From Armatimonadota bacterium (GTDB lineage: Bacteria > Sysuimicrobiota > Sysuimicrobiia > Sysuimicrobiales > Humicultoraceae): a DNA stretch of 64,000 nucleotides. Below the pieces are notes generated by a model that ran no database searches, was not told the origin of the DNA, and was given only the letters and a program-made list of their open reading frames with translations. The DNA lies in the NCBI GenBank assembly GCA_031081715.1, contig JAVHMA010000003.1:1-64000 (forward strand). Direction: 5' to 3'. Below, in pieces: positions 33,582 to 55,821 of this stretch. How positions within the stretch are numbered: the first letter of the stretch is position 1; each line of letters begins with the position of its first letter. The position numbers and the translations under genes are program-made.

Positions 33582-33692
33582 ACTAGCCTCCGAGGGCCCG
33601 CCCCGCGCATCGGGCGCCGGCGGCGGGTGGTACCACACCCTTTGATACGCGGGCGCGGGCGTCCTGCGCCCGCGCGAGCGAGGGGGTGCGCG

Positions 33693-37496: not shown

Positions 37497-37599
37497 GGGG
37501 TCCCTCCACCGCAGTTTTCCCCCGACCTCTTCGTCGGCGCCCGCGACGCGCCCTCCGGGGGAGGACCGTCGCGCGAGCGCCGCGAAGGGGGAGGAGCCC

Positions 37600-40817: not shown

Positions 40818-41467
40818 AGCGAGCGCCGAAGAACGCGCGTCGGAGCCGGACAGCGGGCGCGTCCCGGCCAAGGCCCGGACGGGCACGGCGCCGCGCCCCG
40901 GGCGGGCGGAAGGTCGCGGGGCCGCGGGCGGCCGCGACCAGAGCGACAGCCGCCCTGCGGGGTCGCGCCGGGCGCCTCGTACCGGTCGGCGAGGCCGAGG
41001 TGCGCCTGGTGGTCAACGGCGCCGAGGTGCGCCGCACGGTCGAGGTGCGCCGGACGCTCGCGGACTTCCTGCGGGAGAACCTGGGCCTGACCGGTACGCA
41101 CCTGGGCTGCGAGCACGGCGTCTGCGGCGCGTGCACCGTGCTCCTGGACGGCCAGCCCGTGCGGTCGTGCCTGCTGTTCGCGGTGCAGGCCACGGGCCAC
41201 GAGGTCACGACGGTCGAGGCGCTCGGCACGCCCGAGGCGCTCTCACCGTTGCAGCAGGCGTTTATGGACCACCACGGCCTACAGTGCGGCTTCTGCACCC
41301 CGGGCATCCTGATGAGCGCCCACGCGCTGCTCCGCGACCGCCCCCGCGCCACCGAAGAGGAGATCCGCGAGATGCTCGGCGGCCACCTCTGCCGCTGCAC
41401 CGGCTACCAGGGCATCCTCCGCGCGCTGCGCGCCGCCGCCGGCCTGCCACCGAACCCGGTGCACTGA
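40814..41467 (+). CDS. Molybdenum hydroxylase [2Fe-2S] subunit with basic N-terminal extension, enzyme 2
   Basis: The protein has 217 residues. From about residue 60 it is a normal CoxS-type subunit: VRLVVNGAEVRRTVEVRRTL, CEHGVCGACTVLLDG for the first cluster, and CGFCTPGILMSAHAL and HLCRCTGYQG for the second. The first 55 residues (KRAPKNARRSRTAGASRPRP...) are almost entirely Arg, Lys, Ala, Pro and Gly, and are absent from usual family members of about 155-165 residues. The ATG overlaps the FAD-subunit stop as ATGA, supporting this start; a GTG near codon 64 would remove the extension but cuts into the fold. No twin-arginine export signal is present, as the hydrophobic stretch is missing. 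Confidence 0.88.
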   Translation: MKRAPKNARRSRTAGASRPRPGRARRRAPGGRKVAGPRAAATRATAALRGRAGRLVPVGEAEVRLVVNGAEVRRTVEVRRTLADFLRENLGLTGTHLGCEHGVCGACTVLLDGQPVRSCLLFAVQATGHEVTTVEALGTPEALSPLQQAFMDHHGLQCGFCTPGILMSAHALLRDRPRATEEEIREMLGGHLCRCTGYQGILRALRAAAGLPPNPVH

Positions 41468-41492: not shown

Positions 41493-42428
41493 TTGCATCG
41501 GATCCGTCCTCGGCGCGGTCCTGATCCTGGCCCTCTACCGCGCCGTCAAGAAGCCGTCACGAGCATCGTCTTGCGCGCACGCTGGCTCCCGGCGCCGCTG
41601 GGCGGCTTCATCGGTGCCGCAGGTCGCGGGCGCGTGCTCGCCGCGTTCGCGCGCAGCGCCTACCTCGAGGTGCGCGGCGAGGTCGTGGCGCTGGCCGCCG
41701 CCGGCCTGGACCGCGGGCCGCTGGTGATCCTGGTGGACGGCTTCGACGGCGGGCGGCTGTCACCGGGCGACGAGGTGGCGCTCGCGGGCGGGCGGCTGCG
41801 CGTGGCCGCCTACGACATCGCGCTCGACGGCGCGGATCCGTGGGACCCCACCCTGCCGACTCCTCCGGCCGGTGCGGTCTCGCGCCTGCCCGACGTGGAG
41901 CGTGCGCTCGCCCGAGGGGCGCCGCCAGAGAGCGCTGCGGCGCTGCTCGGGCACCCGCCGGCCGCGGTGTCCGCCCGGCACCGGCGGCTCCTTGACAGTC
42001 TTTGCGCAGGGCTCGCCGTCCTGGAAGACACGCTGCGAGGCCTCGACGCGTGCGGCGATCTCGCCGCAGCCGTGGGCCACATCGCCGGCCGGGGCCCGGG
42101 GCTCACGCCGTCGGGCGACGACGTGCTGGTCGGCGTCCTGCACGCGATGACGGCATGGCCCGCCCTCGCCGCAACAGCGGGCGGCCCCGAGGTGCGACGC
42201 CGCATCGCCCGTGCGGCGAGTCCCCTGACCACGCGCATCAGCGCGGCCTACCTGCGGGCCGCATCCGAGGGATGGGCGGCCGAACCGTGGCACACGCTGG
42301 TGGGGGCGCTGGACGGGACGGACGAGGCGCTGGGGGCCGCGGTGGCGGCACTGCTTCGGGTGGGCGAGACATCCGGCGCCGACGCGTTGACTGGGTTCTG
42401 CTGGGCGGCGCGGAGGCTTGGCGCCTGA
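41493..42428 (+). CDS. DUF2877 (AllH/YlbF-like) protein
   Basis: This protein of about 311 residues (start uncertain) carries the hallmark GPGLTPSGDDVLVGVL at about residue 190 and a C-terminal LLRVGETSGADALTGFCW, which define DUF2877. E. coli YlbF, now called AllH, belongs here and is reported to act with FdrA (AllF) and YlbE (AllG, DUF1116) as oxamate carbamoyltransferase in anaerobic allantoin breakdown. Homologues of those two partners occur at 52813-55821, about ten kilobases away. Starts are poor: TTG at 41493 or TTG at 41571, neither with a ribosome site. It lies 25 bases after the enzyme-2 [2Fe-2S] subunit, so probably in its operon. Confidence 0.82.
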   Translation: MHRIRPRRGPDPGPLPRRQEAVTSIVLRARWLPAPLGGFIGAAGRGRVLAAFARSAYLEVRGEVVALAAAGLDRGPLVILVDGFDGGRLSPGDEVALAGGRLRVAAYDIALDGADPWDPTLPTPPAGAVSRLPDVERALARGAPPESAAALLGHPPAAVSARHRRLLDSLCAGLAVLEDTLRGLDACGDLAAAVGHIAGRGPGLTPSGDDVLVGVLHAMTAWPALAATAGGPEVRRRIARAASPLTTRISAAYLRAASEGWAAEPWHTLVGALDGTDEALGAAVAALLRVGETSGADALTGFCWAARRLGA

Positions 42429-42429
42429 G

Positions 42430-44193
42430 TCAGCCGGCCTGGCCGCCGCCGGCGCCCGCCGCAGAGGGCCCGGCCGGACGTCGCTGCAGCCGCTGCTCGA
42501 CCGACTCGAGCAGTTCCTGCACGCCGCGCGCCACCTCGCGCCAGGCGCTGCCGTACTGCCCCATGGTCCGGTACTTCCGGTAACGCCGCTCAACCAGCCG
42601 ACGCGGAGGCAGCCGCCCCAGCTCCGCGAGCGCGGAGACCACGTAGCGACGCACCGCGGCCGCGGCCGCGTCGTGGTCGGCGTGCGCGCCGCCGGCCGGC
42701 TCCGGGATAATGCCGTCGATGACCCCGAGGCGCAGCAGGTCGGCCGCGGTGAGCTTGAGAGCCGCGGCCACCTCGGGCGCGCGCGCGGCGTCGCGGTAGA
42801 GGATCGCGGCGGCCGCCTCTGGGGAGATGACCGAGTAGAACGCATGCTCCAGCATGTACACCCGGTCGGCGAGGCCCAGGGCGAGCGCCCCGCCGCTGCC
42901 GCCCTCGCCGATGACCACGGCCACCACGGGCGTCGGGAGCAGGGCCATTGCCTGGAGGTTGGCCGCCAGTGCCGGCGCGATGCCGCGCAGCTCGGCCTCG
43001 TAGCCGGGGTAGGCGCCGGGCGTGTCGATGAGCGTCAGCACCGGCAGGCCGAACGTGCCCGCGAGCCGCATCAGCCGCAGCGACTCGCGGTAGCCCTCGG
43101 GCAGCGGCATGCCCTGGTGGGGACCGCCGGGCCGGTCGGGCCACGACCCGCGCTCCTGGCCGATGACGACCACCGGCTGGCCGTCGATCTCGCCGAGCCC
43201 GCCGACGATCGAGGGGTCGTCGCCCGACTGGCGGTCGCCGTGGAGCTCGACGAACGAGGCGACCATCCGCCGGATGTAGGCGAGCGCCGTGGGCCGCTGC
43301 GGGTGACGCGCAGCCTGGACGACGTCCCAGGCTTCCGGTGGCTGCGTCTGCGGCGCACGCGGGAGCCGCTCGGCGGCCAGGTGTCCCCGCGGGCCGCGGC
43401 GGAGGTGGCGCAGGAGGTACTGCACGACCTCGCGCAGCCGCCGCCGGTCGAGCACCAGGTCCACCATGCCACCGGCAAACAGGCGCTCCGCGCGGTGCGA
43501 GTCCGGCGGCAGCACCTCGCCGACCGTGGCCTCGATCACGCGCGGGCCGACGAACCCGACCTGGGCACCCGGTTCCGCGATGAGGATATCTCCCAGCGAG
43601 GCGAAGCTCGCGGTCACGCCGCCGAACGTAGGGTGCGCGAGCACCGAGACGTACGCCAGCCCGGCCGCGTGGTGGCGCGCGCGCGCGGCCGCGGTCTTGG
43701 CCATCTGGACCAACGATAGCATGCCCTCCTGCATGCGCGCGCCGCCGCTGGCGGTCACCGTCACCACGGGCAGCCGCCGGCGTGTGGCAACCTCGAACGC
43801 CTTCGCGATCTTCTCGCCGACGACCGACCCCATGGTGCCGCCCAGGAACGCGAACTCGAAGACCGCGAGCACCACCGGGAGACCGCCGATGCGCGCCGCT
43901 CCGACCACGACCGCCTCGCGCAGGCCCGTGCGGCGGCGCGCCTCGATCAGGCGCGCGCGGTAGGCGCGCTGGTCCGCGAACCGTAGCGGGTCGGTGGAGA
44001 TGAGCCCGCGGTCGAACTCGCGGAACGTGCCAGCGTCGACCAGCGAGGCGATGCGATCGCGCGCCGGCATCCCGAGGTGCGCGCCACAGGCAGGACACAC
44101 CCACAGGCTCTGGCGCAGCGCGTCCTCCGACGCCTCGGCCCCGCAGGCCGGGCAACGGTGCACAGCCGGCCCGGCCGACCTAGACCGCGCCAT
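42430..44193 (-). CDS. accDA: Fused acetyl-CoA carboxylase carboxyltransferase (AccD-AccA)
   Basis: The protein has 587 residues. The N-terminal half is the beta subunit with its zinc ribbon (CPACG at 14-18 and CPACG at 33-37) and VVTVTASGGARMQEGMLSLV. The C-terminal half is the alpha subunit, with ERGSWPDRPGG-like substrate loop, GMPLPEGYRESLRLMRLAGT, IDTPGAYPGYEAELRG and GEGGSGGALALGLADRVYML. In most bacteria the two are separate; fused forms occur sporadically. The enzyme moves CO2 from biotin to acetyl-CoA to make malonyl-CoA for fatty acids. No biotin carboxylase or carrier gene is nearby. The ATG lies 14 bases inside the end of the CoA-transferase gene, an unusual pairing. Confidence 0.95.
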   Translation of the reverse strand: MARSRSAGPAVHRCPACGAEASEDALRQSLWVCPACGAHLGMPARDRIASLVDAGTFREFDRGLISTDPLRFADQRAYRARLIEARRRTGLREAVVVGAARIGGLPVVLAVFEFAFLGGTMGSVVGEKIAKAFEVATRRRLPVVTVTASGGARMQEGMLSLVQMAKTAAARARHHAAGLAYVSVLAHPTFGGVTASFASLGDILIAEPGAQVGFVGPRVIEATVGEVLPPDSHRAERLFAGGMVDLVLDRRRLREVVQYLLRHLRRGPRGHLAAERLPRAPQTQPPEAWDVVQAARHPQRPTALAYIRRMVASFVELHGDRQSGDDPSIVGGLGEIDGQPVVVIGQERGSWPDRPGGPHQGMPLPEGYRESLRLMRLAGTFGLPVLTLIDTPGAYPGYEAELRGIAPALAANLQAMALLPTPVVAVVIGEGGSGGALALGLADRVYMLEHAFYSVISPEAAAAILYRDAARAPEVAAALKLTAADLLRLGVIDGIIPEPAGGAHADHDAAAAAVRRYVVSALAELGRLPPRRLVERRYRKYRTMGQYGSAWREVARGVQELLESVEQRLQRRPAGPSAAGAGGGQAG

Positions 44194-45370
44194 CGCGGTG
44201 CATCGCGGCGATCGCCGCGTCGTCGAAACCGCATTCGCGCAGGATCGCGTCGGTGTGCTGACCCAGCACGGGTGGCGGCGCGGCGACGCGGCCCGGCGTC
44301 TCGGACAGCTTCACGGGCACACCGGTCTGCCGGATGCGGCCCGCGCGCGGGTGGTCGACCTCCACCACCATCCCGCGGTGACGCACCTGCGCATCCGCGA
44401 ACAGGTCGGCCATCAGGTAGATGGGGCCAGCGGGCACGCCGGCCGCCTCGAGGGCGCGCGTCCACTCCGCGGTCGTCCGCGACGCGAAGAGCTCCTCGAG
44501 CAGCGCCACCAGCGCGTCGCGGTGGGCCACCCGGTCAGCGTTGGTACGGAACCGGGCGTCCGCGGCCAGGTGGGGCGCGCCGACGGCCTGGGTGAAGCGG
44601 CTCCAGATCGCCTCGCTGCCGACGGCCACGTTGACGTAGCCATCGCGCGTGCGGAACGCCTGGTAGGGCACCAGCGAGGGATGCGCGCTGCCCAGCCGCC
44701 GCGGGTTCTCACCGGTCGCGAAGTAGTGCCCGGCCTGGTAGGTCATCCAGCCTACCTGGGCGTCGAGCATGGCGGCGTCCACGTGCTGGCCGCGGCCCGT
44801 CCGGGCGCGCACGTGCAGCGCCACCATGATGCCGAAGGCCGCGAACATGCCCGCGGCGATGTCGGTCACCGCCACCCCCACCTTCACGGGTGGCCGGCCC
44901 TCCTCCCCGGTCGTCCCCATCAGTCCGCCCATGCCCTGGACGATCAGATCGTAGGCGACGCGCTCGCGGTAGGGCCCGTCCTGGCCGAACCCCGAGATGG
45001 ACGCGTACACCAGCCGCGGGTGCGCGGCGGCCACCGCCGCGTAGCCGAAGCCGAGCCGGTCCATGATACCCGGCCGGAAGTTCTCGACCAGGACGTCGGC
45101 GCGGGCGAGCAGCCGCCGCAGCACCTCCTGGCCCGCCGGGTGCTTGAGGTTGAGGGTAAGGCTCTCCTTGTTGCGGTTCACCCCGAGGAAGTACGCGCTC
45201 TCGCCGCCCACGAACGGCGGGCCCCAGCCGCGGGTGTCGTCGCCGCCGTCGGGGCTCTCCACCTTGATGACGCGCGCCCCCATGTCGCCGAGCATGGTGG
45301 TGCAGTAGGGCCCGGCGAGCGCGCGGGTGAGGTCGAGGACCAGCAGGTCGCCCAGCGGACCGTCGCGCAT
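44180..45370 (-). CDS. CaiB/BaiF family class III CoA-transferase
   Basis: The protein has 396 residues. Family landmarks are LVLDLTRALAGPYCTTMLGDMG at the N-terminus, NRNKESLTLNLKHPAGQEVL, LVENFRPG and VKVGVAVTDIAAGMFA, where D170 corresponds to the catalytic aspartate of formyl-CoA transferase. The glycine-rich and C-terminal small domain follow. These enzymes move CoA between carboxylic acids. Neighbours are a putative cyclase/amidase upstream (18-base gap) and accDA downstream (14-base overlap), so CoA activation of a ring-cleavage acid is plausible. The substrate is not predictable; the family includes carnitine, formyl, succinyl and benzylsuccinate transferases. The ATG at 45370 starts the conserved fold directly. 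Confidence 0.94.
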   Translation of the reverse strand: MRDGPLGDLLVLDLTRALAGPYCTTMLGDMGARVIKVESPDGGDDTRGWGPPFVGGESAYFLGVNRNKESLTLNLKHPAGQEVLRRLLARADVLVENFRPGIMDRLGFGYAAVAAAHPRLVYASISGFGQDGPYRERVAYDLIVQGMGGLMGTTGEEGRPPVKVGVAVTDIAAGMFAAFGIMVALHVRARTGRGQHVDAAMLDAQVGWMTYQAGHYFATGENPRRLGSAHPSLVPYQAFRTRDGYVNVAVGSEAIWSRFTQAVGAPHLAADARFRTNADRVAHRDALVALLEELFASRTTAEWTRALEAAGVPAGPIYLMADLFADAQVRHRGMVVEVDHPRAGRIRQTGVPVKLSETPGRVAAPPPVLGQHTDAILRECGFDDAAIAAMHRDGAV

Positions 45371-45388
45371 GCTCAGAGGCCCGGGGGC

Positions 45389-46219
45389 CTACGCCTCCAC
45401 GAACGCGACGAGCCGGCAGAACGCCGCCTCGCCGCCCTTGAACCGGAACGGGAAGCAACCAACCCAGACCCTCTGGTCGAGCACCAGGTCGATATCCCCG
45501 CCGACGTTCTCCACGTGGAAGACGCCCCGGGGGAACAGCTTCGTGTGGGTCGCCTGGTAGTCGCGCGGCCAGGGGAACGCCTCGTCCATGGACATGCCGA
45601 TCTTCCGCTCGACCTCGGGGATCAGGTCACGCCGCGCGTCGCGCACCTTGGTGTTGAAGGGATGGTCGGTGGAAATGGCGTCGACCGCCATCCACCGGAT
45701 GCCCCGGTCCAGCACCCAGTCGCAGAACTCGGCGCGCGGGCCGGGGTGCCGGAGGAACGAGCGAGGCAGGTCGGGCCCGGCGTCGCGGTGCCGCCCCCTC
45801 GTGGCCTCGGACCAGTCCTCGTTGTAGTACGCGTGGTAGCCGGTGTGAATGACCAGGATGTCGCCGCGCTCGATCCGGATGCCGTGCGTCTTCTCCCATT
45901 GTTCGAAATGCTGCGGGCCGTAGATGTCGTAGTCGCCGATCCCGAACGGCTGCAGGTCCACGACGCACGCCGGGCCGACCAGGGTGGCGATCGGGATGCC
46001 CGCGACGTCGGGGCCGGGGTCGTTGAAGTGCAGCGGTGCGTCCAGATGCGTGGCGATGTGGTTGGTGCTGCTGATGTGCTGGGCGTTGACGCCCTCGAAG
46101 GCCATCTTCTTGACCCACTTGACGGTCGGACCCTCGTAGTAGGCGAACGGCGGCGAGTCCACGCTGAAGTTCTGCGAGAGGTCGAGCACGCGGCAGCGGG
46201 ACAGGTCGAACGGCTTCAT
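45389..46219 (-). CDS. Cyclase family (kynurenine formamidase-like) metal-dependent hydrolase
   Basis: This 276-residue protein has the signature of the cyclase/KynB family as HIATHLDAPLHFND, in which two His and an Asp bind zinc or manganese (the usual form is H-G-T-H-x-D-x-P). Other motifs are VLDLSQNFS, IERGDILVIHTGYHAYYNE, WMAVDAISTDHPFN and VFHVENVGGDID with the acidic ligand region. Known members hydrolyse N-formylkynurenine, isatin and other cyclic or aryl amides. The ATG follows GGAGGAG closely. It heads a likely operon with the CoA-transferase and accDA. Given the nitrogen-heterocycle genes around it, hydrolysis of a cyclic amide such as isatin-like or hydantoin-like compounds is a reasonable guess. 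Confidence 0.85.
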   Translation of the reverse strand: MKPFDLSRCRVLDLSQNFSVDSPPFAYYEGPTVKWVKKMAFEGVNAQHISSTNHIATHLDAPLHFNDPGPDVAGIPIATLVGPACVVDLQPFGIGDYDIYGPQHFEQWEKTHGIRIERGDILVIHTGYHAYYNEDWSEATRGRHRDAGPDLPRSFLRHPGPRAEFCDWVLDRGIRWMAVDAISTDHPFNTKVRDARRDLIPEVERKIGMSMDEAFPWPRDYQATHTKLFPRGVFHVENVGGDIDLVLDQRVWVGCFPFRFKGGEAAFCRLVAFVEA

Positions 46220-46288
46220 GCAGGCTCCTCCTCGGGCGGATCGATCTGGTGGGGACTAGCTTCGGCGCCGCGCCGGCGGTGCCTGCGT

Positions 46289-46303
46289 GCCGCCGGTGGC
46301 GGC
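46289..46303. repeat. Short GC hairpin in the kelch-cyclase gap
   Basis: GCCGCC and GGCGGC flank GGT in the 147-base noncoding gap between the kelch gene stop (46367) and the cyclase start (46219). No T-run follows. It could slow transcription between the two minus-strand genes. I see nothing else in this gap except the cyclase ribosome site. Confidence 0.35.
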
Positions 46304-46366
46304 GCGGCGACCGCACAGGCGGCCCTCGGGCTGTGGCGGGCGCGGCGCGCCTGACGCCGCACAGAA

Positions 46367-47392
46367 CTAGCCGGGGACGAACGCCTCGTGCGTGGTCGAG
46401 GGGCGGCTGCCGCCGACGGTGAGCCCGCCGCCGGGGATGTAGATCGTCCCGCCCACGGCCGCGGCCCCGGTACCGTGGCGCGGCGTGGGCATCGGCGGCA
46501 GCGCCGCCCACCCGTCGGCGCGGGGATCGTAGACCTCGGCCTCCTGGAAGACGCGGCCGGTCTCCTCGCCGCCGAACACGTACGCCCGGCCGCCCAGGGC
46601 CGCGGCCGCGGCGCCGCTGCGGGGCGTGGGCAGCGGCGCCCGCTCCTGCCACCGGTCGGCCGCGGGATCGTAGGCGTGGTGGCGCCCGGTGTTGTTCGCG
46701 AAGGTGTTGAACCGGCCGCCGATCGCGTGGATGCGGCCGTCGAGGACGACGAGCGCGATGTGGTCGCGGCCGTCGGGCAGCGGCGCCCGCGCGCTCCAGG
46801 TGTCGGCCGCTGGGTCGTAGACCTCGTGCGTGCCCACGCTGGTGACATCCCGACCGCCGACGACGTGGAGCCGGCCACCCACCTCGGCGACCGACATCGC
46901 GCCGCGCTTGGCGGGCAGCGGGGCGATCTCGCGCCAGGCGTTCGCCGCCACGTCGTAGACGAAGCAGTTGGCGATCGCGGTGCGGTTCTGCTCGATGAAC
47001 CCGCCGAACGCGTAGATGCGGCCGTTGAACCCGACCACGCCCACGTGGTTGAGGCCCCGCGGCATCGGGGCGAGCGTGCGCCAGGCATCGGTGGCCGGGT
47101 CGTAAACCTGATTGAGCGGCTGATCGACGCGGCCCTCGGCGTAGCCTCCGAGCACGTAGACCTTGCCGTCGAGGACGGCGACGCTGATCTCGGTACGCGC
47201 AAGCGGCAGCGCGGCCCGCGTGATCCACCGGCCGCCCCCGGTCTGCGCCACGCGCGGCGCCCCGGCCGGGGACGCCTGCGTCACACGGGCGAGCGTCCCG
47301 GCCGCGGCGGCCCATCCGAGCGCCGCGGCGCCCGCGACGAACGCGCGGCGGGTGATCCCATCGGCTGCGGTGTGGCGGCGGGTTTGCGACAT
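46367..47392 (-). CDS. Tat-exported kelch-repeat beta-propeller protein
   Basis: This 341-residue protein has a twin-arginine signal, ITRRAFVAGAAALGWAAAAG, followed by six kelch-type blades with the repeated pattern hydrophobic strand, GG, Tyr-Asp-Pro and Trp: VYVLGGYAEG, IYAFGGFIEQ, LHVVGGRDVT, IHAIGGRFNT, AYVFGGEETG and IYIPGGG. Each is followed by VYDPATDAW-like strands. It is probably a periplasmic or surface propeller acting as a scaffold or sialidase-like binder; no catalytic residues are identifiable. The ATG at 47392 is preceded by AGGAGGGGGAG. It is divergent from the cytosine-deaminase-like gene across 154 bases and upstream of the cyclase gene. Confidence 0.9.
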   Translation of the reverse strand: MSQTRRHTAADGITRRAFVAGAAALGWAAAAGTLARVTQASPAGAPRVAQTGGGRWITRAALPLARTEISVAVLDGKVYVLGGYAEGRVDQPLNQVYDPATDAWRTLAPMPRGLNHVGVVGFNGRIYAFGGFIEQNRTAIANCFVYDVAANAWREIAPLPAKRGAMSVAEVGGRLHVVGGRDVTSVGTHEVYDPAADTWSARAPLPDGRDHIALVVLDGRIHAIGGRFNTFANNTGRHHAYDPAADRWQERAPLPTPRSGAAAAALGGRAYVFGGEETGRVFQEAEVYDPRADGWAALPPMPTPRHGTGAAAVGGTIYIPGGGLTVGGSRPSTTHEAFVPG

Positions 47393-47546
47393 CTCCCCCT
47401 CCTGGCCGGCTGGTGCACCACGACCCTCGTACGCAGGGGGCGCCCGGCCGGTTCGCGCGCCCGGGAGATGCGGGCCACACGCGCCGTTCGGCCCGGCCCG
47501 GGCAGGGAAAGGCGCGGGTGGAGCGTAATCTCCCTGCGACCCCACG

Positions 47547-48815
47547 ATGGACCTCATCATCAGACGGGCGGCGACCCTGGCCCACCCCGGGCCCGTGGAC
47601 ATCGGGATCGACGGCGGGCGCATCGTCCGCCTCGCCCCGGCGCTGCCCGACCGCGCCGCCGAGGAGATCGACGCCGACGGACGCCTGGTCACCCCCGGGC
47701 TGGTCGAGCCGCACATCCACCTGGACGCCGCCCTCACCGCGGGCGAGCCGCGGTACAATGCGACGGGCTCGCTGTTCGAGGGGATCGAGATCTGGGGCGA
47801 GCGCGTCCGCTCGCTGACCCGCGACGACGTCCGGCGCCGCGCCCACGAGGCGATCACCTGGATGCTGGCCTGCGGGGTCACCCACATCCGCACCCACGTG
47901 GACGTCTGCGACCCGTCGCTCGTGGCGTTGCGCGCGCTGGTCGAGGTCCGGGACGCGTGGCGGGGCGTGGTCGGCATCCAGATCGTCGCGTTCCCCCAGC
48001 AGGGCATCTACTCGTTCCCCGACGGCGAGGCGCTCCTCGTCGAGGCCCTGGGGCTGGGCGCCGACGTGGTGGGCGGCATCCCGCACTACGAGTGGACCCG
48101 CGAGTATGGCGAGCGGGACGTTCGCACCGCGCTGCGGCTGGCCGCCGAGCACGATCGGCGGGCCGACCTGCATTGCGACGAGACCGACGACGACCAGAGC
48201 CGGTACCTCGAGCTGGTGGCTGCCGAGACGATCCGCCTGGGGCTCCAGGGCCGGGTGACCGCGAGCCACACCACCGCGATGCACTCGTACAACAACGCCT
48301 ACGCCTACCGGCTCATCCGGTGGATGCGCCACGCCGGGGTCCACATCGTCACCAACCCCCTGGACAACGCCGTGCTCCAGGGCCGCTTCGACGGCTACCC
48401 GGTGCGGCGCGGCTATACGCGCGTGCGCGAGTTGCTGGCGGCCGGCATCAACGTCTGCATCGGCCATGACTCGATCATGGACCCGTGGTACCCGCTGGGG
48501 GTCGGCGACCCGATCCAGGCCTGCTTCGTGATGGTGCACTACGGCCACATGTCGGCGCACGCCGACTTCACCACGCTGCTCGAGATGGTCACCACCCGCG
48601 CCGCGGCCGCGCTCGGGCTCGCGGACTACGGCCTGGCGGAGGGGTGCCGGGCGGACCTGGTGGTCTTCGACGCGCCCACGGCCATGGACGCCATCCGGCG
48701 GCTGGCACCGCGGGTAGCGGTCATCGCGGGCGGCCGCGTGGTGGCCCGCACGACGCCCGCGCGCACAGAGGTCCTCGCCGGCGGGGAGCGCCGGACGGTG
48801 ACGTTCCAGCGATGA
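47547..48815 (+). CDS. codA: Cytosine deaminase-like amidohydrolase
   Basis: This 422-residue metal-dependent deaminase has metal ligands visible as PHIHLD (H56, H58), DLHCDETDDDQSR (H209 and catalytic E212), ASHTTAM (H241) and GHDSIMDPWYPLG (D308). The last two motifs and FPQQGIYSFPDGEA are the same as in E. coli CodA, which turns cytosine into uracil and ammonia. Relatives deaminate isoguanine or creatinine-type rings, so the exact base is open. Its stop overlaps the ABC permease start (ATGA), and a binding protein and ATPase follow, making an uptake-plus-deamination operon for a pyrimidine-like compound. The start ATG at 47547 lacks a strong ribosome site but begins the conserved fold. Confidence 0.88.
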   Translation: MDLIIRRAATLAHPGPVDIGIDGGRIVRLAPALPDRAAEEIDADGRLVTPGLVEPHIHLDAALTAGEPRYNATGSLFEGIEIWGERVRSLTRDDVRRRAHEAITWMLACGVTHIRTHVDVCDPSLVALRALVEVRDAWRGVVGIQIVAFPQQGIYSFPDGEALLVEALGLGADVVGGIPHYEWTREYGERDVRTALRLAAEHDRRADLHCDETDDDQSRYLELVAAETIRLGLQGRVTASHTTAMHSYNNAYAYRLIRWMRHAGVHIVTNPLDNAVLQGRFDGYPVRRGYTRVRELLAAGINVCIGHDSIMDPWYPLGVGDPIQACFVMVHYGHMSAHADFTTLLEMVTTRAAAALGLADYGLAEGCRADLVVFDAPTAMDAIRRLAPRVAVIAGGRVVARTTPARTEVLAGGERRTVTFQR

Positions 48816-49630
48816 GCGCGGACGCCGCGCCGGCCCGGCCCGCCGCGCGCCCCGGCCCGCGGGTGCGGCTCCCGGTCGCGGAGCTGCGCTCCTGGGCGAT
48901 CTTCGGTGCGCTCGCCGTGGCCGCGTGGGAGGCGGCCTCCCGACTGTACGGGCAGCCCTACCTGCTGCCCGCGCCGTCGGCGATCGCCGCGGAGTTCCGC
49001 GAGCACTGGCCGCTGGTGCTCGGCTACGCGGCGATCACCAGCCAGGAGATCGTCGTCGGGTTCCTGGCGGGCGCCCTGGCGGCCCTGCTGTGCGCGATGG
49101 TGTTCCTGCGGCTCCCGCGCCTGGTCGAAGACTTCCTCTACCGGGTGATCGTCACGCTCAACAGCACGCCCTTCGTCGCGCTGGCTTCGCTGGCGGTGGT
49201 GTGGTTCGGGCTGGGGCTGCAGAGCAAGATCGTCATCGCGGGCATGTACACGTTCTTCGCGGTCCTCTACACGACGCACAAAGAGTTCATCTCGGTCGAG
49301 GTCATCCGCGAGCAGTTGATGGACATCTACAACGCGACCTGGTGGCAGCGGATCTTCCTGCTCAAGATCCCCTCGGCGCTGCCCATCATCTTCGTGAGCC
49401 TCAAGGGCGGGGTCATGGCCGCCGTGAATGGCGCGATCGTCGGCGAGCTCTTCGGCGCGTTCGAAGGGCTCGGCTACATGATCCTGGACTCGCGGTACGT
49501 GGGCAACACTGTGCGGGTGTTCCTGGCCGCGGTCTTCTGCACCGCTATCGGGTGGCTGCTCCTCGGCGCCGTCACGCTCGCCGAGCGCCTGCTGCTGCCC
49601 TGGCACGTGAGCATGGCCGGGCGCCGGTAG
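48812..49630 (+). CDS. ABC importer permease, SsuC/ThiX type
   Basis: This 272-residue inner-membrane permease has about six helices. The family loop is EQLMDIYNATWWQRIFLLKIP, in the position of the EAA motif, and PSALPIIFVSLKGGVMAAVNGAIVGE precedes the last helices. It belongs to the nitrate/sulfonate/taurine/pyrimidine-precursor group that works with NMT1-like binding proteins. ATGA overlap with the deaminase links substrate uptake to deamination. The N-terminal 25 residues are proline/alanine-rich and cytoplasmic. The binding-protein gene follows after 86 bases. Confidence 0.92.
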   Translation: MSADAAPARPAARPGPRVRLPVAELRSWAIFGALAVAAWEAASRLYGQPYLLPAPSAIAAEFREHWPLVLGYAAITSQEIVVGFLAGALAALLCAMVFLRLPRLVEDFLYRVIVTLNSTPFVALASLAVVWFGLGLQSKIVIAGMYTFFAVLYTTHKEFISVEVIREQLMDIYNATWWQRIFLLKIPSALPIIFVSLKGGVMAAVNGAIVGELFGAFEGLGYMILDSRYVGNTVRVFLAAVFCTAIGWLLLGAVTLAERLLLPWHVSMAGRR

Positions 49631-49716
49631 CGCCCGGCGCGAGAGGAGGACGGAGGCCCAGGGGCGCTGCCCGGCCAGCAGTACGGTTCCACCAGACGCA
49701 CGAGGGGGGAGACGCG

Positions 49717-50715
49717 ATGCGCATCGCACTGCGAATGGCCGCCCTGCTCGCCGCGGTCGTGCTGGCCAGCGCCGGGACGCTGGCGGCGCAGGGCCTAACG
49801 AAGGTCACGATCATCGAGGCGTGGTTCATCCACAACGAGTCCATGGGCGATCCGGTCGCCGTGGAGAAGGGGTTCTACCGGAACCTGGGGCTCGACGTCC
49901 GCGTCGTCGGCGGCGGCCCGGGGCTCTCTCCGATCGACCGCGTGATGGCCGAGTCCAAGAAGGGCACGATCGTCTTCGGCGTGGACTACCCTTACAACAT
50001 CCTCGACGCGCGGGAGAAGCAGCGACTCCCGCTGGTCGTCGTGGCGCACGACTTCCAGCGCTCCGCGGTGCGGCTCTTGTCGTGGAAGGAGCTGCGGGGC
50101 CCGCGCGATGTGGAGGGCACGGTGGCCACCTGGATCGGATACGACAAGCAGATCAAGGCGGCGATCGGTCCGGACTGGGAGCGCCGCATCCGAGTCGTCA
50201 ACCAGCAGGGCGACCCGGCCACCATCGGCTCCTGGCTGAAGAAGGACTACCAGTTCGCGCACGCGATGATCTACAACGAGGTGCTGGTCGCCAAGCGCAC
50301 CGCCAAGGAGCGGTACTACGTCTACGACTTCCCGTCCTGGGGGATCGACTGGCCGGAGAACGTCGTCTTCACCACCGAGGAGATCGTCCAGAAGCACCCG
50401 CAGGTCGTGCAGGCCTTCGTGACCGGCCGCTACCAGGGCTACAAGTACGCGCTGGCTAACCGGCAGGAGACCGTGCGGATCCTGGTCCAGTACAACAGCA
50501 ATCTCAAGGGCGGCGAGGCGCACGAGCTCGAGGGCATGGACGGCATCGCCTCGATCATGGTGACCGACACCTCGCGGCGCCACGGGCTGGGGTACGTGGA
50601 CCCGGCCGGCTGGCAGCGCGTGGGCCGCGACATGCAGCGAGCGGGCTTCTACCGCACGATGCCGAACGTCACCGCGGCCTACTCCACCCGGTTCCCGAGC
50701 AAGGTGATGCCGTAG
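49717..50715 (+). CDS. NMT1/THI5-like substrate-binding protein
   Basis: This 332-residue exported binding protein has the signal peptide RIALRMAALLAAVVLASAGTLAAQ. The NMT1-type fold follows: WFIHNESMGDPVAVEKGFY, LGLDVRVVGGGPGLSPIDRV (the glycine-rich ligand loop) and GVDYPYNIL. This family binds pyrimidine-like solutes such as thiamin pyrimidine or riboflavin precursors, and also taurine and nitrate. Beside a cytosine-deaminase-like enzyme a nucleobase is the natural guess. GGGGGGAG lies seven bases before the ATG. A very strong hairpin follows the stop (50724-50756), then the ATPase gene, the same arrangement as after the binding protein at 7150-8175. Confidence 0.9.
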   Translation: MRIALRMAALLAAVVLASAGTLAAQGLTKVTIIEAWFIHNESMGDPVAVEKGFYRNLGLDVRVVGGGPGLSPIDRVMAESKKGTIVFGVDYPYNILDAREKQRLPLVVVAHDFQRSAVRLLSWKELRGPRDVEGTVATWIGYDKQIKAAIGPDWERRIRVVNQQGDPATIGSWLKKDYQFAHAMIYNEVLVAKRTAKERYYVYDFPSWGIDWPENVVFTTEEIVQKHPQVVQAFVTGRYQGYKYALANRQETVRILVQYNSNLKGGEAHELEGMDGIASIMVTDTSRRHGLGYVDPAGWQRVGRDMQRAGFYRTMPNVTAAYSTRFPSKVMP

Positions 50716-50723
50716 GCACCGCC

Positions 50724-50756
50724 CGGGCGGGGGCGGCGGGCCGCCGCCCCCGCCCG
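50724..50756 (+). promoter_or_regulatory. Strong GC hairpin between binding-protein and ATPase genes
   Basis: Arms at 50724-50739 and 50741-50756 are perfectly complementary over 16 bases around a single central base, so at least 15 pairs form with a three-base loop. There is no T-run, so a complete terminator is unlikely. It probably stabilises the upstream binding-protein mRNA or reduces readthrough into the ATPase gene. Confidence 0.6.
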
Positions 50757-50773
50757 CCGCGGGTGTTCGCCCC

Positions 50774-51625
50774 ATGACCGCCGCCGTGACCGCGCCGATC
50801 ATCCGGCTGGAGGCCGTTTCGAAGACCTACGACCTGCCCCGCGCCGGCGCGCGCGGCGCCGCCGACCGCGCGCTCAACGTCGTCTACGACCTCTCGCTGG
50901 ACGTCCAACCGCGGGAGTTCGTCTCGATCGTGGGGCCCTCGGGGTGCGGCAAGACCACCGCGCTGTTCATGCTGGCCGGGCTGCGCGAGGCCAGCGCGGG
51001 CCGCATCGAGGTCTGCGGCCGGCCGCCGCGGGAGGCTGTACGCGCGGGGCTCTCGAGCGTGATCTTCCAGCAGCCGGTGCTGTTCGAGTGGCTCACGGCC
51101 GAGGAGAACGTGCTGCTGCCGCTGCGCATGCGCGACGCCCGCTGGTGGGCCTGGCCCGCGCGCCGGGGTCGCTACCTGGCCGCGGCGCGGCGCGCGCTCG
51201 AGACCGTCGAACTCTCCGGGTTCGAACACTACTACCCGGACGCGCTGTCGGGCGGCATGCAGCAGCGCGTGGCGATCGCCCGCGCGCTCACGCTCGACCC
51301 CCAGGTGCTGCTCATGGACGAGCCTTTCGGCGCGCTGGACGAGATCACGCGCGACCGCATGAACCTGGAGCTGATCCGTCTGGCCGAGGCCCGCGGGCTC
51401 ACCATCGTGTTCGTCACGCACTCGATCGAGGAGGCGGTCTTCCTCTCGGACCGTGTGGTCGTCATGAGCCGCGGGCCGTCGCCGGCCACGGGATCGAGCG
51501 TGGTGCGGGTGCTCGACGTCGGACTGCCCCACCCGCGGCAGCTCGCCCTCAAAGAGGAGCCGGCGTTCTTCCAGAAGGTGCGCGAGGGCCGCGAGGCGCT
51601 GCGCCAGACGCAGGGCGTGGCCTGA
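50774..51625 (+). CDS. ABC importer ATPase, SsuB/TauB type
   Basis: This 283-residue ATPase has Walker A GPSGCGKTTAL (about residues 55-65), Q-loop FQQPVLFEWLTAEENVLLPL, signature [15 protein letters not shown], Walker B VLLMDEPFGALDEITRDRMN and H-loop THSIEEAVFL. It is typical of importers with NMT1-type binding proteins. The N-terminus has a 20-residue insertion (LPRAGARGAADRALN) before the Walker A strand compared with the tightest family members. It completes the importer with the two preceding genes. Its stop lies within two bases of the ridA relic on the opposite strand. Confidence 0.94.
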   Translation: MTAAVTAPIIRLEAVSKTYDLPRAGARGAADRALNVVYDLSLDVQPREFVSIVGPSGCGKTTALFMLAGLREASAGRIEVCGRPPREAVRAGLSSVIFQQPVLFEWLTAEENVLLPLRMRDARWWAWPARRGRYLAAARRALETVELSGFEHYYPDALSGGMQQRVAIARALTLDPQVLLMDEPFGALDEITRDRMNLELIRLAEARGLTIVFVTHSIEEAVFLSDRVVVMSRGPSPATGSSVVRVLDVGLPHPRQLALKEEPAFFQKVREGREALRQTQGVA

Positions 51626-51629
51626 AGCC

Positions 51630-51920
51630 GCGCAGGCGCCCCTCTTCCTCGACCTCCAGCACCATCTCGATCTCGACCGCGATGTTCTGCGGTAGCGAGC
51701 CCGTCCCCACCGCCGAGCGCGCGTGCCGCCCGCCTCCCCGTAGAGCGCGACCAGCAGGTCCGCGGCGCCGTTGATCACCTGCGGCTGCTGCGCGAACTCG
51801 GGGTGCAGTGCACCATGCCGAGGAGCTTGACGACGCGCCGGACCCGGTCCAGGTCGCCGATCGCCTCCTTCACCGAGGCCAGGCAGTTGAGTGTTCCCAC
51901 CATCCTCTCGGTCTCGCCCC
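51630..51920 (-). pseudogene. RidA/YjgF-family pseudogene, frameshifted and 5'-truncated
   Basis: Translating the minus strand in three frames reconstructs the C-terminal two thirds of a RidA-type enamine/imine deaminase. The pieces are ETERMVGTLNCLASVKEAIG with LDRVRRVVKLLGMVHCTP, then PEFAQQPQVINGAADLLVAL with YGEAGG after a shift near 51803, then HARSAVGTGSLPQNIAVEIE after a second shift near 51725. The catalytic-type arginine segment (HARSAVG) is present. No N-terminal third is recognisable beyond about 51920. RidA proteins detoxify reactive enamines, and RutC in uracil degradation is one, so its presence beside a cytosine-deaminase operon is telling. Decay or two sequencing errors plus a rearrangement could explain it. 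Confidence 0.8.
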
Positions 51921-52042
51921 GGGGGCGGCCTCTTCCCCATCAGGCCCACCGGGGGTAATCTCTTGCCCAGATGGGCCGTTGCTACGCTGGTGCCTCCGCG
52001 ACGCCACGGAGCCTCGCCGCATCGAGGAAGGAGTGGCCTGAC

Positions 52043-52816
52043 ATGCATGCGATCCGTCCAGCCCTGGCCGCGGCGCGCCGCGCCGCCGGCCCGCTCGTTC
52101 TGGCGCTCGCCGCTGCCCTGGCGGGCGCCGCGGCGCCACCGCTGACGGGCGCCCAGTCCACCACCACCCCCGTCAGCATCGTCGGCAAGCTGCGCGAGCT
52201 GAACCAGGCCGCGGTCGAGATCCGCCACATCGCGTTCACCCCGTCGGTCGGCGCGGTCATCCTGCACGGCCGGAACGACGCGACCTGGATCCGCGTGCCC
52301 ACGAGCACCGGCGACAAGCTGCGCGAGCTCATCAATGCGGGATCGCTGATCCGCTACGTCGCTTTCGCCCCGGACGGCGGGTGGGTGATCTTGCACGGCA
52401 CGAACGAGGCCACCTGGAACGGCATCCCCACAGCCCTCGCTGACAAGATCCGCGAGCTCTACGGCGCCGGCAACCAGATGAAGGCCGTGGCCTTCACCCC
52501 CTCCGGCGGCTGGATCATCCTGCACGGCGGCAACGGCGCCAACTGGAGCACGGTGCCGCAGACCGCGGTGGACAAACTGCGCGAACTCAACCAGGCGGGC
52601 GAGACCTTCCGGGGCATCGCCTTCTCCGCCGGCGGCTGGGTCCTGCTCCACGGCGCCAACGAGGCCACCTGGAACGGCATCCCGCAGGGGACCGCCGATA
52701 AGATCCGCGAGCTCTACGCCGCCGGCAACCAGATGAAGCAGATCGCCTTCACCTCGGCGGGCGGCTGGATCATCCTGCACGGCACGAACGCCGCCGTGTG
52801 GAGCAACGTGCCCTAG
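52043..52816 (+). CDS. Secreted protein with five 42-43-residue tandem repeats
   Basis: This 257-residue protein has a signal peptide (about residues 1-37, ending in TGAQS) followed by five tandem repeats to the last residue. The consensus is K[L/I]REL..AG...[R/K].[I/V]AF, then GGW[V/I]ILHG.N..TW, then [I/V]P with a linking Asp. Repeat starts are K49, K92, K135, K178 and K220. Repeats 3 and 5 (YGAGNQMKAVAF and YAAGNQMKQIAF) and 2 and 4 are most alike, suggesting duplication of pairs. The GGW.ILHG strand pairs and a helix (KLREL) indicate a solenoid or propeller-like secreted protein. Function unknown; no cysteines or catalytic motif. GAAGGAG precedes the ATG. The stop overlaps the opposite gene stop by three bases. 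Confidence 0.85.
   Translation: MHAIRPALAAARRAAGPLVLALAAALAGAAAPPLTGAQSTTTPVSIVGKLRELNQAAVEIRHIAFTPSVGAVILHGRNDATWIRVPTSTGDKLRELINAGSLIRYVAFAPDGGWVILHGTNEATWNGIPTALADKIRELYGAGNQMKAVAFTPSGGWIILHGGNGANWSTVPQTAVDKLRELNQAGETFRGIAFSAGGWVLLHGANEATWNGIPQGTADKIRELYAAGNQMKQIAFTSAGGWIILHGTNAAVWSNVP
52187..52813 (+). repeat. Five tandem coding repeats of about 126-129 bp
   Basis: The repeat units begin at 52187, 52316, 52445, 52574 and 52700. The periods are 129, 129, 129 and 126 bases, and the fourth unit is one codon shorter. The unit is in frame, so copy number could change without disrupting the gene. Confidence 0.8.
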
Positions 52817-54054
52817 CGGCCCAGCGCCTCCGCCATCGCCTCGACGGCCTGCTCAAAGCAGGCCATCGGCGGCCGCACGAGCCCGGCGCCGATCTGGCCG
52901 ACGCCCGGGCGGTGGTGCGCGATCCCGGTGTTGACCCGCGGGGTGAGGCCGGTGCGCACGACCTTGCGGATATCGATGCCCGTGGGCGTGCCCCGGAAGT
53001 CGAGCGGCGGCAGCCCGAAGGTCGGGTTCTCGCCGACCGTAATCTCGTACATCTCGAGCGTGGCGGCGACGGCCTCGGCGGGCGTGCCCCCGACGAACTT
53101 GACAATCGCCGGGGCGGCCGCCATGGCGAAGGCGCCGATGCCGGCGGTCTCCGTGATGGTGGAATCGCCGATGTCCGGGTTGGCGTCGGCGGCGGAGAAT
53201 CCCGGGAAGTAGAGGCCGACCGGGACCTCGGCGGGCGCGACGAACCAGCGGTCGCCTAGCCCGCTGACGCGGATGCCGAAGTCCGTGCCGTTGCGCGCCA
53301 TGCAGGTCACGACCGTACTTCCGGCCACCCCGTGGGCCGCGTCCATGGTGACCTTGCAGGCGGCCATGACCGGGTTCAGCACCGCCAGGTCGTTGTCGGC
53401 GAAGTAGCGCAGCACCGCCTCGAGCGCCTCGGCTGGTAGCCCGACGCGCGCCAGGTGCGGCGCGAGCAGCCGGCCGAAGAGCGCCGAGCCGGCGCGGTTG
53501 CGGTTGTGTCCTTCGTCGCCCATCGTGAGCTGCTGGGCGATGAGGCTCTTGAGGTCGAGCCCGCCCATGCGCGCCAGGGCGTCAGCGACCGCGGGGCCCA
53601 GCACGTCGTTCATCCAGCGCAGCCGCGCGAGTACGTCGCCGGCGTAGGCGCCGTAGCGGAGCACCTTGCCGTAGCCCTCGTTCAGGTTGGAGTAGGCCCG
53701 CGCGCCCGACCCCCGGTCCTCCACAACGTACACCTGCATCGAGGCCGTGGTCACGCCGGCCATGGGTCCCACGGCGGCGTGGTGGTGGCAGGGTGCGAGC
53801 CGCACGTCGCCGCGCTCCACCAGGGCGACAGCCTCGGCCTCGGTCGCCGCGAGCCCCTCGAAGAGCAGTCCGCCGATCACCGCCCCGCGCAGCGGCCCGG
53901 ACGCGCGGTCCCACGTCACCGGTGGCCCGGCGTGGAGGATGAGGTCGGGCCGCATGCCCGGAATGACGTCCCGGGCGGGCGCGACGCCGACGAGCGCGGG
54001 CTGCGCGCCCAGAATGCGGTCGAGGGCGATCTGGTTGGCGGCGTTGATGTCCAT
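52813..54054 (-). CDS. DUF1116 (AllG/YlbE-like) protein
   Basis: The protein has 413 residues, close to E. coli YlbE. Conserved DUF1116 segments are visible: GPLRGAVIGGLLFEGLA, PCHHHAAVGPMAGVTTASM, LTMGDEGHNRNRAGSALF, AHGVAGSTVVTCMARNGTDF and PTGIDIRKVVRTGLTPRVNTG. The histidine-rich and GDEGHNRN motifs look like an active or ligand site. YlbE, with FdrA and YlbF, has been assigned as the elusive oxamate carbamoyltransferase (AllFGH), making carbamoyl phosphate from oxalurate. The gene follows fdrA directly (stop at 54055, ATG at 54054), so the pair is coupled. The third component (DUF2877) is at 41493-42428. No carbamate kinase is in the window. Confidence 0.88.
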   Translation of the reverse strand: MDINAANQIALDRILGAQPALVGVAPARDVIPGMRPDLILHAGPPVTWDRASGPLRGAVIGGLLFEGLAATEAEAVALVERGDVRLAPCHHHAAVGPMAGVTTASMQVYVVEDRGSGARAYSNLNEGYGKVLRYGAYAGDVLARLRWMNDVLGPAVADALARMGGLDLKSLIAQQLTMGDEGHNRNRAGSALFGRLLAPHLARVGLPAEALEAVLRYFADNDLAVLNPVMAACKVTMDAAHGVAGSTVVTCMARNGTDFGIRVSGLGDRWFVAPAEVPVGLYFPGFSAADANPDIGDSTITETAGIGAFAMAAAPAIVKFVGGTPAEAVAATLEMYEITVGENPTFGLPPLDFRGTPTGIDIRKVVRTGLTPRVNTGIAHHRPGVGQIGAGLVRPPMACFEQAVEAMAEALGR

Positions 54055-55821
54055 CTATGCCTCCAGCCGGTCCAGCAGGTCCATCAGGTGCGGCTTGCCG
54101 CCCGCGGGCGGCCGCCAGTCCACCGCGACCACCGGCACCCCTTGGGTCTGCAGGCTCTCCGTGAACAGGTCCAGCCCGACAGAGATCACCGCGGGGCGCC
54201 CGGCCAGCAGGCTGGCGATCGGCCCGACCTCGGGCCACGGCGGTGGAACGGCTGCCGGCGCGACGCGCGACGGCGTCCACGCCGCGCGGGGGGCGCCGCG
54301 GCCCTCCAGCACGAGCCCGGCGAGCCGCGCGGCGCGCGCGTTGCTGTCCTCGACCAGCATGCCGGCCTCGGCCAGAACCTCGCGCTGCGCCGCGGCGTCC
54401 TGGGGATCCTCGTCGGTGCCGCACACCGAGCCCACGACCACCAAGTAGCGGCCGGCCCGGCGGGCCGCCTCGCGCACCTCGCGTAGCACGGGGGCGAGCG
54501 CGGTCGCCGGATCGGGGTGCGCGCCGTAGCCCAGCACAACGTCGAGGTCGATGACCGCGGTCTCGGGATCGGCCGCCTCCTGCCGCAGGCGTTGCAGGCG
54601 CAGGGTCGGGTCGAGCATCGGGTGCAGGCGACCCTGGGTGAACTCGTCCCCGCCCATGTCCACCACCGCGTGCCCGCGGCTGCGGGTCACCGGGTCGAGG
54701 ACGTCCTCGGGCACCAGGGGCGCATTGGAGTAGATCGGGCCGATGTGCGGTCGAAGCAGGACCAGCGTCTCGTAGCACAGCGTGCCACCGGAGAACAGGC
54801 CTCGCAGGTAGCGCGCACCCGCGTGCAGGCGCGCGGCCTCCTGGGCCGGCAGGCCGCGCAGCGCCGGGGGACCCGGATCACCGCCGCCCACGAGCCGCAC
54901 AGCCTGACGCGCCGCGTCCTCCAGGCTGACTGCAGCGTGAACGTTGCCGCCGGCGGCGACCTGCGCGCCCAGAAACGCCACGACGACGGGCTTGCCGCAT
55001 GCCGCCGCGGCGGCCAGCACCGTCGCCGCGACCGCCGGCGCCGGCGGCTTGCTGACCAGCACGATGACCGCGGTCGCCGGGTCCAGGGCGAGCGCCCGCA
55101 GCCCCTGGAGCATCGTCACACCGCCCACCGCCTCGGAGAGGTCGCGGCTCCCGGTGCCGATGGCGTGGGTGATGCCGGCGCCGAACCGGTGGATGAGGGA
55201 CGTGACTTCCTGGAGCCCGGTGCCGGCCGCGCCGACGAGCCCGATGCGGCCGGCGCGCACGCGGTTGGCGAACCCGAGCGCGGCGCCCGCGATGATCGCG
55301 GTGCCGCAGTCCGGGCCCATCAACAGCAGGCCCGCGGCGCGGCTGCGGGCCTTGAGCTCGATCTCGTGCTCGAGCGGGACGTTGTCGGAAAACAGCAGGA
55401 CGTGCAGCCCTTCGTCGAGGGCCTCGGCGGCGACCGCCCGCGCGAACCGGCCGGGGACCGAGACGAGTGCGAGCCGCGCCTGTGGGAGCTGCCGGCGCGC
55501 CGCAGCGATGGTCTTCGGCCGGTAGGCGCCGCCCCCGGCGGTCTCGCGCCGCCGCACCAGCGCCTCCTGCGCGCGAGCCACCGCGGCCTCGGCCTGCTGG
55601 AGGGTCGCGGCGCGCGCGGCCACAACCAGATCGTCGGGGCCTGCGCGGTCCAGGTCGGGAAAGGCCAGCCCACCCTCGCGCAGGAGCGCCTTGTTGGCCT
55701 CGGTCGCCATGACGACGCCGGCCTCCTCGACGCCGGGCAACTCGCGCGCCTCGCGCTGCGCGAGCATCAGGGCCACGGAGTCGAAGTAGGCGCTGCGGCG
55801 GACGATCCCGACGACGGGCAC
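54055..55821 (-). CDS. fdrA: FdrA family acyl-CoA synthetase-like protein (AllF-like)
   Basis: The protein has 588 residues. FdrA proteins resemble succinyl-CoA synthetase: a CoA-binding-type N-terminal region (VVGIVRRSAYFDSVALMLAQ, then FSDNVPLEHEIELKARSRAA), GPDCGTAIIAGAALGFANRV and GLVGAAGTGLQEVTSLIHRF with a G-x-G loop. A ligase-like C-terminal half follows, with VDMGGDEFTQGRLHPMLDP and DLDVVLGYGAHPDPA. There is no phosphohistidine motif as in true ligases. In E. coli fdrA (allF) is part of the oxamate carbamoyltransferase set. The GTG at 55821 with GGGGGGAG upstream is the start. Its downstream neighbour is the DUF1116 partner. The role in purine or allantoin-derived nitrogen recovery is inferred from homology. 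Confidence 0.9.
   Translation of the reverse strand: MPVVGIVRRSAYFDSVALMLAQREARELPGVEEAGVVMATEANKALLREGGLAFPDLDRAGPDDLVVAARAATLQQAEAAVARAQEALVRRRETAGGGAYRPKTIAAARRQLPQARLALVSVPGRFARAVAAEALDEGLHVLLFSDNVPLEHEIELKARSRAAGLLLMGPDCGTAIIAGAALGFANRVRAGRIGLVGAAGTGLQEVTSLIHRFGAGITHAIGTGSRDLSEAVGGVTMLQGLRALALDPATAVIVLVSKPPAPAVAATVLAAAAACGKPVVVAFLGAQVAAGGNVHAAVSLEDAARQAVRLVGGGDPGPPALRGLPAQEAARLHAGARYLRGLFSGGTLCYETLVLLRPHIGPIYSNAPLVPEDVLDPVTRSRGHAVVDMGGDEFTQGRLHPMLDPTLRLQRLRQEAADPETAVIDLDVVLGYGAHPDPATALAPVLREVREAARRAGRYLVVVGSVCGTDEDPQDAAAQREVLAEAGMLVEDSNARAARLAGLVLEGRGAPRAAWTPSRVAPAAVPPPWPEVGPIASLLAGRPAVISVGLDLFTESLQTQGVPVVAVDWRPPAGGKPHLMDLLDRLEA

Follow-up and report, generated by a model that had tools for sequence, protein, structure and literature searches.

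A conserved AllFGH, cyclase, and molybdenum-hydroxylase locus of Sysuimicrobiota and Chloroflexota, with a possible role in pyrimidine-type ring catabolism

The window analyzed here, a stretch of 64,000 nucleotides from an Armatimonadota bacterium (GTDB Sysuimicrobiota; G000:C7:1-64000, where G000 is the window genome), encodes the three subunits of an AllFGH carbamoyltransferase near a cyclase-fold hydrolase, a CoA-transferase, a carboxyltransferase, and a molybdenum (Mo) hydroxylase resembling carbon monoxide dehydrogenase (CODH). AllF-AllG, the cyclase, the CoA-transferase, the carboxyltransferase, AllH, and the three-subunit Mo-hydroxylase constitute one conserved locus, which is shared by two groups of uncultured bacteria, Sysuimicrobiota and Chloroflexota. 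Judging from protein families and gene order, AllFGH in this locus probably acts on a ureide that the cyclase has opened, capturing urea nitrogen in carbamoyl phosphate, an energy-rich compound. We put the chance at roughly one in two that the cluster as a whole breaks down a pyrimidine-type ring by oxidation and phosphorolysis, proceeding via barbiturate, with substrates and step order deduced from families and neighbors.

The locus in the window and its relatives

An earlier note on this DNA had reported FdrA, DUF1116, and DUF2877 genes, and all three lie where it placed them and scored above the cut-offs of their families (NF004760, PF06545, and PF11392, respectively). They are the single AllG, single AllH, and single above-cut-off FdrA of the window genome. 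A "cyclic amidase-like enzyme" in the same note corresponds to a gene that is present but is a PF04199 cyclase. The genes of the locus are:

37393-39945 (+), large subunit of a CODH-like Mo-hydroxylase, NF040766 ("CODH group 5"); MoCoBD_1/2 domains, NF040766 1044 bits (cut-off 950), motif SPYRGAGR
39942-40817 (+), FAD subunit of the Mo-hydroxylase; FAD_binding_5 and CO_deh_flav_C
40568-41467 (+), 2Fe-2S subunit of the Mo-hydroxylase; Fer2 and Fer2_2, with domains at residues 149-287 of an open reading frame (ORF) that starts too early
41493-42428 (+), AllH (DUF2877), carbamoyltransferase subunit; PF11392 86.4 bits (cut-off 25)
42430-44193 (-), fused AccD-AccA-like carboxyltransferase; PF03255 and PF01039, NCBIfam accA/accD
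44180-45370 (-), family III CoA-transferase, candidate malonyl-CoA maker; PF02515 478 bits, NCBIfam matches all below cut-off
45389-46219 (-), PF04199 cyclase-fold metal hydrolase, candidate ring opener; PF04199 115 bits, conserved metal motif, fold nearest isatin hydrolase
52813-54054 (-), AllG (DUF1116), carbamoyltransferase subunit of the cyclase-linked clade; PF06545 314 bits (cut-off 27), tree placement
54055-55821 (-), AllF (FdrA), carbamoyltransferase subunit; NF004760 528 bits (cut-off 433), match to the E. coli FdrA structure 3dmy

Conservation was assessed in 43 genomes of the phylum, all from a single order. Armatimonadetes bacterium CSP1-3, whose lineage is now named Sysuimicrobiota (PMC11604079, in excerpt), was among the closest AllG records that carry a name. 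AllG occurred in 38 genomes, AllH in 35, above-cut-off FdrA in 34, and the cyclase, with an E-value threshold of 1e-20, in 38. The set of AllF, AllG, AllH, and cyclase was complete in 31 genomes, a count that includes lower-scoring partial FdrA matches, and wholly absent from three (G035, G036, and G042); one or two members were missing from the other nine, of which seven, all but G015 and G023, are less than 90% complete. The four genes lay on a single contig within a span of 8-38 kb in 17 genomes. Subunits of the Mo-hydroxylase adjoined AllH in 25 of 26 loci, the sole miss (G015) being at a contig edge, and the other side of AllH was usually occupied by the cyclase, CoA-transferase, and carboxyltransferase. 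Above-cut-off NF040766 matches came from 30 of the 43 genomes; the three without AllFGH and the cyclase had none. Of the 30 copies, 26 shared a contig with AllH when coordinates were compared by eye. The earlier description of the genes as a dispersed set was thus misleading, because the same set forms one locus across the phylum, with conserved linkage and co-loss; the reading of the genes as one functional set is supported.

Two or more AllG matches occurred in 19 of the 43 genomes, and 15 of these 19 had a single FdrA match of at least 300 bits. This suggests that a single AllF (and AllH) may serve several AllG paralogues.

Relatives outside the phylum came from a contig scan with the window AllG, for which the best 80 of 214 confirmed relatives were kept, mostly from Chloroflexota/Anaerolineales; the scan selects close AllG relatives and so describes the cyclase-linked clade rather than the whole AllG family. 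Of the 72 loci that extend 2.5 kb or more downstream, 65 had a cyclase within 10 kb of AllG, and in 55 loci the cyclase started within 700 bp of the AllG end on the same strand. In the 41 roomy loci, which have 5 kb on either side of AllG, we found Mo-hydroxylase subunits (34), an amidase (25), a CoA-transferase (13), AllH (12), a uracil-permease-like NCS2 transporter (12), and a malonyl-CoA-synthase-like gene (8). An NmrA-like gene was present in 23 loci.

In Enterococcus faecalis (L167:7249-10260), FdrA is annotated as a single coding sequence of ~1000 residues that spans the AllG match; this apparent AllF-AllG fusion is consistent with a physical complex.

The AllG clade and oxalurate

The AllFGH enzyme family became known in 2024. 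The E. coli enzyme acts on the acyl-urea oxalurate, interconverting it with oxamate and carbamoyl phosphate (PMC11326118, in excerpt), and the earlier note had pointed to the assignment of the E. coli homologues to oxalurate/oxamate processing in allantoin degradation. On such a reading, AllFGH of the window would be a canonical oxamic transcarbamylase acting on oxalurate derived from allantoin or purines, which would fit the presence of the same three subunits as in E. coli (51% identity for AllG, 39% for AllF, and 41% over 114 residues for AllH) and of purine-type genes elsewhere in the window genome. Several observations argue against this reading. First, in a tree of 80 AllG sequences, built by a quick search with support from the SH-like approximate likelihood-ratio test (SH-aLRT) only, the cyclase-linked group fell in one clade (53 rows, support 99; 52 rows, support 97), apart from E. 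coli AllG, from the allantoinase-linked AllG of the same phylum, and from the AtzD-linked AllG of plasmids. We claim only the cyclase-linked clade because support is weak for the deep branches and the tree has several long rows. Second, the allantoin genes of the phylum accompany a different AllG paralogue: the other paralogues (L063, L070, L077, L185, and L189) lie beside a class V aminotransferase, an allantoinase-family gene, and mostly another Mo-hydroxylase. Third, an allantoinase scoring above 450 bits was found in only 13 of the 43 genomes and is absent from most genomes with AllFGH (the best match in G000 is 399 bits), G042 has an allantoinase (506 bits) yet none of AllFGH, and no allantoin genes were recognized in the window. 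Given the separate AllG clade and the rarity of high-scoring allantoinases among genomes with AllFGH, a canonical oxalurate role for the window enzyme is unlikely, and we regard the oxamic transcarbamylase explanation as improbable. The phylogeny, which the earlier note had offered as a check on linkage to allantoin genes, counts against oxalurate; the non-canonical carbamoyltransferase that the note had also entertained is likely, and a concern of the gene set with nucleobase-type nitrogen is supported.

Like E. coli AllFGHK (PMC11326118, in excerpt), the window system has three subunits and would use phosphate to split an acyl-urea into an amide plus carbamoyl phosphate. Unlike it, the window locus has an AllG of another clade, no allantoin genes nearby, a cyclase and a Mo-hydroxylase instead, a carbamate kinase that is not adjacent, and an AllH gene that stands next to the Mo-hydroxylase in a different operon.

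The predicted AllH model (mean predicted local distance difference test score, pLDDT, 90.6) is confident overall, rich in strands toward the N terminus and helical toward the C terminus; it gave no structural match in Foldseek at E <= 0.001 or in VIA-align 2 at Z >= 5, which is no proof of a new fold.

A possible oxidative, phosphorolytic pyrimidine route

Between the cyclase and AllG, the window holds a cytosine deaminase, real as the earlier note had supposed, and an ABC importer:

47547-48815 (+), cytosine deaminase; NF006685 505 bits (cut-off 483), match to CodA structures
48485-49630 (+), ABC importer permease; PF00528, true ORF start probably later
48925-50715 (+), ABC importer binding protein, NMT1/THI5-like; PF09084, domain at residues 307-515
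50774-51625 (+), ABC importer ATPase; PF00005

In the route that we propose, nucleobases would be imported by this ABC transporter or, elsewhere, by NCS2 or BMP systems. Cytosine would be converted to uracil by the cytosine deaminase, uracil to barbiturate by the CODH-like Mo-hydroxylase, and barbiturate to ureidomalonate by the PF04199 hydrolase. AllF-AllG-AllH would then convert ureidomalonate and phosphate to malonamate and carbamoyl phosphate, as the E. coli enzyme does with oxalurate. An amidase or nitrilase would release the amide nitrogen, malonate would be activated to malonyl-CoA by a CoA-transferase or malonyl-CoA synthase, and carbamate kinase would convert carbamoyl phosphate to ATP, ammonia, and CO2. 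Opening of the barbiturate ring gives ureidomalonate (PMC3758960, in excerpt), which is an acyl-urea like oxalurate but one carbon longer.

The proposed intermediates uracil, barbiturate, ureidomalonate, and malonate are those of the oxidative pyrimidine pathway with an AtzD-family barbiturase and ureidomalonase (available text of PMC3758960). Unlike that pathway, the window genome has no AtzD-family protein, the ring opener would be the PF04199 enzyme, and cleavage of ureidomalonate would use phosphate and save energy instead of yielding urea by hydrolysis. An AtzD-type barbiturase was rejected for the window genome, which gave no PF09663 match; the family is present in two of the 43 phylum genomes. 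In the window cyclase the metal motif HxxTHxDxPxH reads HIATHLDAPLH, and it is kept in 67 of 70 single-domain copies. The predicted fold of this cyclase is nearest to isatin hydrolase (E 3.8e-9), in a mediocre model with a mean pLDDT of 72.

The Mo-hydroxylase might instead be a true aerobic CO dehydrogenase and its AllFGH neighborhood incidental, as could be thought from the NCBI family name (aerobic CO dehydrogenase group 5), the above-cut-off NF040766 score, and the CoxG and XdhC genes that stand alongside in many loci. However, the form I CO dehydrogenase motif (A/S)YxCS(F/L)R was found in 0 of 60 cluster-type large subunits, all 60 of which carry P[YVM]RGAGR, and CO oxidation has been experimentally validated for form I only (PMC13240472, as excerpted). 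Together with the adjacency to AllH and the co-absence with AllFGH described above, these results make this explanation very improbable.

Which ring is processed is suggested by the neighbors. We favor a pyrimidine because of the cytosine deaminase, uracil-permease-like NCS2 transporters, CodA relatives, and malonyl-CoA-synthase-like genes, and malonate as a product would point to barbiturate rather than hydantoin. The NCS2 transporters of the Chloroflexota loci are nearest to uracil permease. A malonyl-CoA-synthase-like match of at least 490 bits occurred once each in seven of the 20 Chloroflexota-set genomes, the next best anywhere scoring 374 bits, and the AllG loci of all seven genomes hold a malonyl-CoA-synthase-like gene, with coordinates matched for L103 only. 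CodA relatives were found in eight of the 20 genomes, and the gene lies inside the cluster in five. Among 65 loci, many of them truncated at contig ends so that absences are soft, 29 had only an amidase, 10 only a nitrilase, three both, and 23 neither, so that the two looked like alternatives for one step; a malonyl-CoA-synthase-like gene occurred in eight and a CoA-transferase in 13, with both in none and neither in 44.

The same logic might serve another cyclic ureide (hydantoin, a dihydropyrimidine, parabanate, or another N-CO-N ring), with the Mo-hydroxylase and cyclase yielding a ureido acid that AllFGH phosphorolyzes. Conserved linkage does not specify the ring, some clusters contain a D-hydantoinase-family gene, and the nearest fold is that of isatin hydrolase, which opens a lactam with neighboring carbonyls, as in parabanate. 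We consider another ureide rather unlikely, as the cytosine deaminase, uracil-permease-like NCS2, and malonyl-CoA-synthase-like neighbors fit barbiturate better.

A number of points weigh against the barbiturate route. The cyclase and Mo-hydroxylase families span many substrates. Six of the seven malonyl-CoA-synthase-like genes fall below the curated cut-off (one is above), CodA relatives in Chloroflexota are only distantly similar (217-227 bits vs a cut-off of 483), the window cluster contains no amidase or nitrilase, and a few clusters hold a D-hydantoinase-family gene. The carbamate kinase of the window genome is unlinked to the AllFGH locus, and just one of the 41 roomy loci holds a carbamate kinase (scored by protein cluster c48, which coincides with annotated or above-cut-off carbamate kinases). 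The route assigns no role to the carboxyltransferase or the NmrA-like gene and likewise gives no account of the two-domain cyclase of some Chloroflexota. About 23 cyclases are tandem fusions of two PF04199 domains, of ~557 residues (L143-L149, L090, and other Chloroflexota loci); in the one such protein inspected, from L145, the metal motif is degenerate in the first domain.

In the open-access (PubMed Central) literature, with most subscription papers outside the search, we found nothing that ties AllFGH, FdrA, or DUF1116 to barbiturate, to the cyclase, or to the Mo-hydroxylase. Tentatively, and at somewhat less than even odds, we suggest a further pyrimidine catabolic logic in which "CODH group 5" makes barbiturate, PF04199 is a second, unrelated barbiturase, and AllFGH phosphorolyzes ureidomalonate; as part of this suggestion, AllG could be an exchangeable specificity subunit, given the multi-AllG genomes with a single AllF. 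If correct, the cell would gain ATP from pyrimidine nitrogen in place of releasing urea, a widespread uncharacterized cluster of Sysuimicrobiota and Anaerolineae would acquire a function, a ring opener unrelated to AtzD would be added, and the AllFGH carbamoyltransferase family would serve several ureides. Genes named "aerobic CO dehydrogenase group 5" would then probably have been miscounted as CO oxidizers.

Carbamate kinase, related clusters, and other window genes

The earlier note had held that absence of a carbamate kinase from the genome would speak against its proposal. One above-cut-off match exists (TIGR00746, 365.8 bits, cut-off 358.25), in a separate yge-like cluster on another contig (G000:C14). 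A kinase adjoining AllFGH was rejected for the window genome, in which the gene sits with ygeW-, hyuA-, and ygeY-like genes and adjoins a protein of the aspartate transcarbamylase (ATCase) family. In tblastn comparisons, its neighbors were 34% (ygeW), 40% (hyuA), 40% (ygeY), and 50% (yqeA, 256 residues) identical to the E. coli proteins, and ygeX had no match in the cluster. The carbamate kinase of the window genome is not dedicated to the AllFGH locus. The cluster (G000:C14:85500-105400, L061) holds the kinase, YgeW-like and ATCase-like carbamoyltransferases, a D-hydantoinase, a YgeY-like protein, and a pyridoxal-phosphate enzyme of threonine-synthase fold. The E. coli yge cluster is associated with purine breakdown, and the L061 cluster is probably a separate purine route of the window genome. 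In G023, G026, and G032, an additional AllF-AllG pair has the carbamate kinase adjoining.

Plasmids of Aminobacter SR38 and Citrobacter freundii carry clusters of FdrA, DUF1116, an AtzD-family ring-opening amidohydrolase, and carbamate kinase, which indicates that the AllFGH family occurs with ring-opening enzymes. These clusters resemble the window locus in combining AllFGH with an enzyme that opens a cyclic amide and with a transporter of nucleobase or nucleoside type, but differ in their AtzD-family opener, adjacent carbamate kinase, and lack of any recognized Mo-hydroxylase. Enterobacterial plasmids, many of them conjugative, frequently carry AllFGH-carbamate kinase clusters that include either an AtzD-family enzyme or a cysteine hydrolase (L163, L164, and 193 plasmid records). 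Nitrifiers have biuH-allFGHK-bmpA-nupABC clusters that place AllFGH outside allantoin pathways (PMC12625717, in excerpt). Like the window locus, these have AllFGH without a complete allantoin pathway and with a nucleoside-type ABC transporter; they differ in having biuret/triuret genes where the window has the cyclase and Mo-hydroxylase (same excerpt).

Elsewhere in the window, a luciferase-like gene at 26416-27717 was considered as RutA-like, which was unsupported, its best NCBIfam matches being F420-type oxidoreductases below cut-off. The ORF at 46216-47202 (-) overlaps the cyclase start by 4 bases, has no Pfam or NCBIfam match, and is of uncertain status as a gene; the ORF at 32691-34280 (+) is long and has no Pfam match. 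Mo-hydroxylase subunits lie at three window sites: 21687-26354, 37393-41467, and from 63169 onward.

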